DNA from: a bacterium
GTDB lineage: Bacteria; Vulcanimicrobiota; Vulcanimicrobiia; Vulcanimicrobiales; Vulcanimicrobiaceae
NCBI GenBank assembly: GCA_021845615.1
Contig: JAJZVP010000003.1
Location: forward strand, 1-45,276
Length of the DNA stretch: 45,276 bases
Direction of reading: 5' to 3'
Each line of letters opens with the position of its first letter. Within the stretch, counting starts at the first letter, position 1. The translations under genes were made by a program, and so were the position numbers. Shown one piece after another: positions 40,636 through 41,921 of this stretch. Below the pieces are notes generated by a model, which had not been told where the DNA came from, did not search any database, and was given only the letters and a program-made list of their open reading frames with translations.

Positions 40636-41421
40636 ATGCGTACCCCGACGATCTTGCTCACCAACGACGATGGAATCGCTTCGCCCGGCTTGCACGAGCT
40701 CGCGCTCGCGCTCGCGGAGATCGCCCGGATCGTCGTCGTCGCGCCCGACGGCAACCGCAGCGGCGTCAGCCACGCGATCACGACCGGCGACTCCGTCGGC
40801 ATTACGGCGTACCACGGGATCGAGGGAGTTCGCGCCTACGCCTGCACGGGGACGCCCGCGGATTGTGCGGTGATCGGGATCGGCGAACTCTGCGACGAGC
40901 GCCCCGACCTCGTCGTCAGCGGCATCAACGACGGCCCGAACCTCGCCGACGATGTGAACTACTCCGGCACCGTCGCCGGCGCGGTGGAGGCGGTCCTCCT
41001 CGGCGTCCGCGCCCTCGCCATCTCGCTCGCGAGCGACCCCGACGACGGCGCGATGCCCCGCCGCTGGGAGAGCGCCGCCGAGCAAGCCCGCCTCCTCGTC
41101 CCGCAGGCCTTCGCCGAATTGCCGCCGGAGCGATACTGGAACGTCAACGTCCCGAATCTCGCCCCTGAACGGCTGCTCGGGCGCCGCTTTACGAGCCTGG
41201 GGCGCAAGCGCTACGGCGACACGATCTCCCGCATCGACGAGCGCCGCGACGAGCGTTACTTCCGCGTCTGGAATCTACCCGGACGCGGCGATAGCGAGGA
41301 CCCCGACTGCGATATCGGCGCCGTCCTTCACGGCTACGTCAGCATCACGCCGATCGCGATCGACCGAACCGACCGCGAGGAGCTCAACCGTTTGCGGCTC
41401 GCTCCGGTTCAAGGGGCATGA
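40636..41421 (+). CDS. surE: 5'/3'-nucleotidase SurE
   Basis: Metal-dependent nucleotidase and exopolyphosphatase linked to stationary-phase survival. The 261 residues start MRTPTILLTNDDGIASPGL, in which the paired Asp bind metal. APDGNRSGVSHAIT and VSGINDGPNLADDVNYSGTVAGA are the remaining active-site blocks. The length is normal. The first codon is ATG 40636; a long in-frame extension upstream lies over the MFS gene and is rejected. Its TGA overlaps the ATG of the next gene, the putative selenoprotein, so the two are translationally coupled. Confidence 0.95.
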   Translation: MRTPTILLTNDDGIASPGLHELALALAEIARIVVVAPDGNRSGVSHAITTGDSVGITAYHGIEGVRAYACTGTPADCAVIGIGELCDERPDLVVSGINDGPNLADDVNYSGTVAGAVEAVLLGVRALAISLASDPDDGAMPRRWESAAEQARLLVPQAFAELPPERYWNVNVPNLAPERLLGRRFTSLGRKRYGDTISRIDERRDERYFRVWNLPGRGDSEDPDCDIGAVLHGYVSITPIAIDRTDREELNRLRLAPVQGA

Positions 41422-41921
41422 AAGAACGTTTTACGGTCGGCGAAGCCGCCCCACTCGAGCTCTTCCCCCAGCCGATTCAACTACCAGCGCTAGTTATTTG
41501 GCCGCGACATACCGGTTGAACGTTTTTTGGCGAACCGCTCGCGCAGTTGCGCGAGTCCGATAAAGCGAAGCGCGGCGAGCGCGTCTACGTCGTCGTCGCC
41601 GCGGATGCAGCGACGACCGCGGCGCTCTGCGAGGGCTACGGCGTCGCGGATGCCTGCATCGCCGACCCCGAACGGCGCACGCATCGCGCCGCTCGCCTGC
41701 GCCCGGCCTCGATCCTCACCTTCTTCTCGCGCGACCTCATACGGCGCGCGTTAGAGAATCGGCGCGCCGGCTTCCGGCAGAATTGGTCGAAGGCACGATG
41801 GGACGACCTCGGTCGCGTACCGGGGGCGATGCGGATCGACGAAAATGGGCGGGTCGCCTGGATTTACCGGGGCGCGCATGCCGGCGACCTTCCGCCGGTG
41901 GAGGAGTTGCTCGCGCGTTAG
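41418..41921 (+). CDS. putative Sec-containing peroxiredoxin-like (AhpC-TSA_2/Prx-like) selenoprotein with in-frame TGA
   Basis: Thioredoxin-fold redox protein of 167 residues if TGA 41517-41519 is read as selenocysteine (U34). Upstream of the TGA the frame gives TVGEAAPLELF, then LPALVIWPRHTG. Directly after it comes TFFGEPLAQLRE in the same frame, and translation continues without another stop to TAG 41919. Prx-like proteins have a block like R-H-x-G-C-x-F-C-R-E-x-L-A-Q-L, so the TGA falls on the first redox cysteine. The second position is Phe (U-T-F-F). Strand VYVVVAADAATTAALCEGYG and the end GRVAWIYRGAHAGDLPPVEE also fit the family. Cys71 and Cys80 could resolve the selenenic acid. The ATG overlaps the surE stop. 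A hairpin suited to a bacterial SECIS follows the TGA. A nonsense pseudogene is the alternative. Confidence 0.8.
41538..41555 (+). promoter_or_regulatory. candidate bacterial SECIS hairpin
   Basis: Perfect 7-bp stem CTCGCGC/GCGCGAG with loop AGTT (41545-41548), inside the reading frame. The loop begins 25 nt after the TGA and has G at its second position followed by U. Both fit known constraints on bacterial SECIS elements bound by SelB: loop 16-37 nt after UGA and a G within the first two loop bases. A G-U pair can extend the stem by one. GC-rich coding DNA makes chance stems common, so this is support, not proof. Confidence 0.62.

Follow-up and report, generated by a model that had tools for sequence, protein, structure and literature searches.

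Background

Several peroxiredoxin-related proteins carry selenocysteine (Sec) in their redox motif. Fish SelU presumably has its place in the AhpC-TSA_2 / PRXL2 group, and the bacterial selenoprotein filed under cd02970, with a UxxS motif, is one that we take to represent the PRX_like2 group. A 2026 inventory of 119 prokaryotic selenoprotein families and subfamilies lists peroxiredoxin (Prx) with TxxU, Prx-like proteins with UxxC or UxxU, and the AhpC/TSA-family cd02970 entry with UxxS (PMC13188914, Table 1); it has no UxxF motif and no entry for NF040769, the NCBIfam family of SelL-related redox proteins. Sec peroxiredoxin (PF00578, TxxU) and Prx-like families 1-3 (UxxC) are known from marine metagenomes (PMC2398784, PMC13188914), and eukaryotic Selenoprotein L (SelL) carries two Sec residues that stand two residues apart (PMC3316567). 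A literature search found no paper on NF040769. Its Sec members may already have been met by NCBI curators, since its model number comes immediately before NF040770, a selenoprotein family in PMC13188914.

In this study, we analyse a gene with an in-frame TGA codon in a 45,276-nucleotide stretch of DNA (the window) from a member of the Vulcanimicrobiaceae. Its product shares with the marine proteins a Sec in a redox motif and differs from them in motif and Pfam family. Like the cd02970 selenoprotein it is Prx-like, bacterial and has Sec first in the motif, and by listed motif the two differ (UxxS there, UxxF here). Where SelL has two Sec residues, the window protein has one, with Phe at U+3, and where human prostamide/PGF synthase (PRXL2B) has C44-x-x-C47 it has U34-x-x-F37 together with the distal cysteines C71 and C80. 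Prx-like bacterial selenoproteins being an already known kind, the gene is best read as a Sec subfamily that is new within a superfamily already known. We put the probability that UGA is decoded as Sec here, in a redox protein of the AhpC-TSA_2 / SelL-related group, at about 0.93, and Sec is probably inserted in vivo. This would add a Sec subfamily that is well supported and whose UxxF motif is unlisted, in a bacterial family with SelA in about four fifths of its genomes.

Results

The gene and its reading frame

The features of the locus are collected in Table 1. The 504-base frame holds a single TGA, and its joined translation, with TGA read as U, has one U in the stretch ...LVIWPRHTGUTFFGEPLAQLRE.... 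The initial annotation, made from the letters of the window, had claimed that the ATG overlaps the stop of the preceding gene, that one TGA at codon 34 interrupts a frame open on to TAG with no other lesion, and that an ORF caller would give just the 124-residue piece; translation and the plain ORF list bear out all of this, with no other stop or frameshift in the frame. The product of the preceding gene (MRTPTILLTNDDGIASPG) we take, from knowledge of SurE, to belong to that family, and a clpX-like gene lies downstream of the selenoprotein gene on the opposite strand. At first sight a stop codon seems to interrupt the gene, and routine gene finding drops the active-site half of the protein. 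When the window was scanned by codon bias for more read-through genes, nothing convincing came up, the scan being insensitive enough to have missed the selenoprotein gene itself.

Table 1. Coordinates of the features discussed, given as positions in the window
Feature	Position	Strand	Basis
surE-like gene, TGA stop overlapping the selenoprotein start (ATGA)	40636..41421	+	sequence MRTPTILLTNDDGIASPG
Complete gene for a predicted 167-residue selenoprotein (Sec34), ending in TAG 41919-41921	41418..41921	+	full-length gene shared by 10 genomes of the genus (L020-L029)
Possible lower helix, GGUU (41514-41517, last Gly codon and U of UGA) with AACC (41533-41536)	41514..41536	+	RNAalifold consensus
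In-frame TGA, predicted to be read as selenocysteine (U34)	41517..41519	+	TGA in 22/23 homologues, TGC in 1; Cys44 in human prostamide/PGF synthase at the aligned site
Putative bacterial SECIS-type hairpin G-CUCGCGC-AGUU-GCGCGAG-U, loop 41545-41548	41537..41556	+	pairing across homologues, frozen synonymous sites, lost in Cys homologue
Fragment given by standard ORF caller, 124 aa from TTG	41547..41921	+	start codon within SECIS loop; without active site

Conservation of the TGA codon among relatives

Searching 99 genomes from the same family turned up 23 homologues, in 22 of the genomes. All but one of the 23 carry a single TGA, which aligns with codon 34 of the window gene, and none elsewhere in the aligned region; these 22 genes come from 21 genomes, and the others are 39-92% identical in protein to the window gene. 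All ten genomes of the genus that were examined carry TGA at codon 34. The remaining homologue (L041; G095:C53) has TGC, and thus Cys, at this position; it is the sole Cys form in the family, and its genome still has SelA. Both codons that the initial annotation had anticipated in orthologues, TGA and TGC, therefore occur. Its claim that coding is conserved on either side of the TGA also held, as dN/dS within the genus is 0.18 before the codon and 0.17 after it, so that both halves are under purifying selection as protein. As judged from these alignments, the TGA is conserved far beyond chance. If the TGA had arisen lately in a gene for a Cys protein, as a pseudogene lesion or through sequencing error, a single base would be enough, TGA being one base from TGC, but the identical codon across so many divergent genes, together with the low dN/dS, leads us to count this account as already refuted, with a vanishingly small probability.

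Most bacterial selenoprotein families have more Cys forms than Sec forms, and here, among the genomes searched, the protein is nearly always the Sec form. The proposal that this is a Sec form of a usually Cys-based family thus holds for the superfamily and fails for the bacterial subfamily. SelA was found in all 22 homologue-bearing genomes and a homologue in none of the 17 SelA-less genomes of the 99, an association that is suggestive only, because the genomes are related and some are incomplete. Searches of plasmid records (tblastn) and viral contigs found no relative, the rest of the phylum gave no match outside the family at E 1e-12, and a single-protein scan of genome contigs returned just two close relatives, which seem to be the G035 and G032 genomes once more. 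In a single case (L093; G029:C130:32000-43000), about 1 kb separates the selenoprotein gene from selB-selA, and the two lie on opposite strands.

Sec-decoding machinery of the genome

The source assembly (2.22 Mb, 186 contigs, 81% complete) contains a tRNA-Sec with UCA anticodon (68.5 bits against a cut-off of 47), selA (396.2 bits) adjoining selB (311.7 bits) on contig C2, both above cut-off, and selD (365.5 bits). The suggestion that the organism decodes Sec, for which the initial annotation had named these four genes as the check, is accordingly supported by the genome. SelD of the source genome (L018 / G000:C40:2239-3162) is itself predicted to be a selenoprotein, having its own in-frame TGA in SSCAGUASKL with a GUU-loop hairpin after it. 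At the window gene, SelB and tRNA-Sec(UCA) would decode UGA codon 34 as Sec, with the hairpin that follows the codon as the signal. The frame would stay open as well if TGA were decoded as some other amino acid, under a reassigned code or by a suppressor tRNA; TGA, however, terminates 10 of the 25 long ORFs in the window and is thus not reassigned wholesale, the position aligns with Cys, and a full Sec system and the candidate SECIS hairpin are in place, so that we hold such decoding to be extremely unlikely.

A SECIS-type hairpin downstream of the TGA

The predicted hairpin has an 8-bp stem and an AGUU loop with G at loop position 2, the loop starting 25 nt after UGA, and in all 22 TGA homologues it fits the published bacterial SECIS model; over 21 distinct sequences, pairing holds in 98% of cells. 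The folding energy of the 43 nt after UGA is -16.4 kcal/mol, a shorter stretch compared with shuffles gives z -1.61, and 64 nt folded from the TGA are not stronger than shuffles (z 0.38); the case for a SECIS element accordingly rests on conservation and not on energy. The codons CTC, CAG, TTG and GAG within the hairpin are each invariant in 22 of 22 sequences, TTG making up 11% of the Leu codons in the rest of the TGA-bearing genes, and where Ala is retained, in 20 sequences, its codon is always GCG. At the Arg codon the wobble base switches between C and T, which keeps a G-C or G-U pair, one homologue has a compensatory A-U in the stem (there is one both-sided change overall), and dS is 0.35 in the hairpin codons against 0.82 and 0.84 on the flanks. 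These codon patterns indicate that the predicted hairpin is held by synonymous codon choice, and it is this synonymous constraint that provides the strongest evidence for a SECIS element. Covariation statistics on the stem in the homologue alignment do not beat a column shuffle; covariation is thin because six of the eight stem pairs never vary, which is a limit and not a contradiction. The hairpin is gone in the Cys homologue, as is the TTG, with CTG in its place, and this single, divergent sequence serves as a supportive rather than a decisive control.

The same TTG bears on the view that the TGA is a true stop and that a separate cistron starts downstream of it. Its presence in all 22 TGA-bearing genes would suit such a start codon, but the TTG is explained by the hairpin loop, and the neighbouring codons CTC, GCG, CAG and GAG are frozen along with it, and the CTG of the Cys homologue stands at this very site. 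The fragment would moreover have neither active site nor first core strand, and purifying selection on the 33 codons before the TGA is as strong as on those after it, all of which makes a separate cistron very unlikely.

Upstream of the hairpin, the RNAalifold consensus pairs a possible lower helix in 98.8% of cells, and 7 sequences change U-A to U-G. The Gly codon that precedes the TGA (41514-41516 in the window) is GGT in 22 of 22 sequences, against 14% GGT among Gly codons; this invariance may reflect a SECIS lower helix, GGUU with AACC or AGCC, or a codon-context effect.

Family, fold and active site

All 23 members match Pfam AhpC-TSA_2 (PF13911), with a best E of 1.6e-14, the window protein scoring 20.2 bits where the gathering score is 27. 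The best family match of all 23 is NF040769, over nearly the whole length, yet the family falls below the curated cut-off of 120 bits: the window protein reaches 71.9, and genome-search scores of 54-90 leave none above it in 149 genomes. The fold model of the window protein is good (pLDDT 88.6, pTM 0.87). Its best PDB match is 9usa, the C44S/C47S mutant of human prostamide/PGF synthase (E 1.4e-3, probability 1.00, TM 0.53-0.55), and the fold matches of the model must be graded as weak (TM about 0.53 for the best). In the profile alignment, U34 falls on the first of the two Cys in the PGF synthase stretch FGCVVC, with an E of only 0.37 by sequence, for which reason the weight of this alignment lies on the fold match; the aligned residue is named Cys44 because C44 and C47 of 9usa are taken as the FGCVVC pair. 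The initial annotation had put U34 at a redox-Cys position, and it does align with such a residue, the active-site Cys in PRXL2/AhpC-TSA_2 proteins. The product is best read as a thioredoxin-fold protein of the AhpC-TSA_2 (PRXL2) / SelL-related group.

The motifs of the known groups are absent from the family. The CxxC or UxxC of AhpC-TSA_2 / PRXL2 is replaced by UxxF throughout, F37 being nearly invariant; the UxxU of SelL was not found, the Sec homologues showing a single U in UTFF or URFF; and the classical peroxiredoxin motif PxxxTxxC(U) is missing, with an invariant H31 at U-3 in place of T. As the classical motif is absent, we do not file the product as a peroxiredoxin, and the earlier label "peroxiredoxin-like" stands in the sense of Prx-like (PRXL2/SelL-related) and not of peroxiredoxin proper. 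The Sec protein might nonetheless be a true peroxide-reducing enzyme, a functional selenoperoxiredoxin, since its Sec is at the peroxidatic position, peroxiredoxins come next after prostamide/PGF synthase in the PDB fold search, and the Pfam models Redoxin and AhpC-TSA are matched as well by some members of the family. Against this stand the H31-x-x-U34 in place of T-x-x-U and the fact that the closest match by structure is to a PRXL2 protein and not to a peroxiredoxin, and we regard a selenoperoxiredoxin as a tentative possibility, at somewhat less than even odds.

For the preferred reading, a Sec-decoded redox protein of the AhpC-TSA_2 / SelL-related group, a mechanism can be proposed. In the fold model, U34 is in the loop that joins strand 24-28 to helix 38-46, where thioredoxin folds usually have their catalytic site; at this place, between the first core strand and the next helix, relatives have the first Cys of CxxC. 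Its selenolate would attack a peroxide or disulfide. Because the partner position U+3 is Phe, we propose a distal resolving Cys: in the manner of atypical 2-Cys enzymes, C71 or C80 would most likely resolve the oxidised selenium, and a thioredoxin-type donor would then reduce it. C80 is conserved in 23 of 23 homologues and C71 in 22 of 23 (Ala in L033); C71 closes the helix after the second strand, and thiol peroxidase Tpx has its resolving Cys at a place that resembles this one. The chance that C71 or C80 is the resolving thiol appears to us about evenly balanced. We are equally divided on the fuller reading, in which a subfamily dominated by Sec (22 forms, against 1 with Cys), absent from the current prokaryotic selenoprotein catalogue, would have changed an ancestral UxxC/CxxC to UxxF and come to depend on distal C71 and C80 as an atypical 2-Cys-like mono-selenol enzyme.

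Other Prx-like selenoproteins in the phylum

Another family of the phylum contains two sister selenoproteins, L073 (G135) and L077 (G138), with the sequence LFVWLRHFGUIFCREE and a UxxC motif. Their LFVWLRHFGUIFC aligns with LVVWLRHVGUTFF of the window family, and in both families the TGA is followed by a GUU-loop hairpin, which in the sisters lies about 26 nt after it and has a stem that differs between the two (U-A to C-G). The sisters keep the Cys at U+3 and are without C71 and C80, the reverse of the window family, so that the two families together offer a testable case in which the resolving residue would have moved and selenium been kept. The phylum looks rich in Prx-like selenoproteins.

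Two more Prx-like sequences of the UxxC type have an in-frame TGA, L087 (G103, frame from 1306) with FNRGFIUPFC and L090 (G015, minus strand) with FYRGHWUPFC, and more TGA matches are present in G127, G128, G129 and G114.
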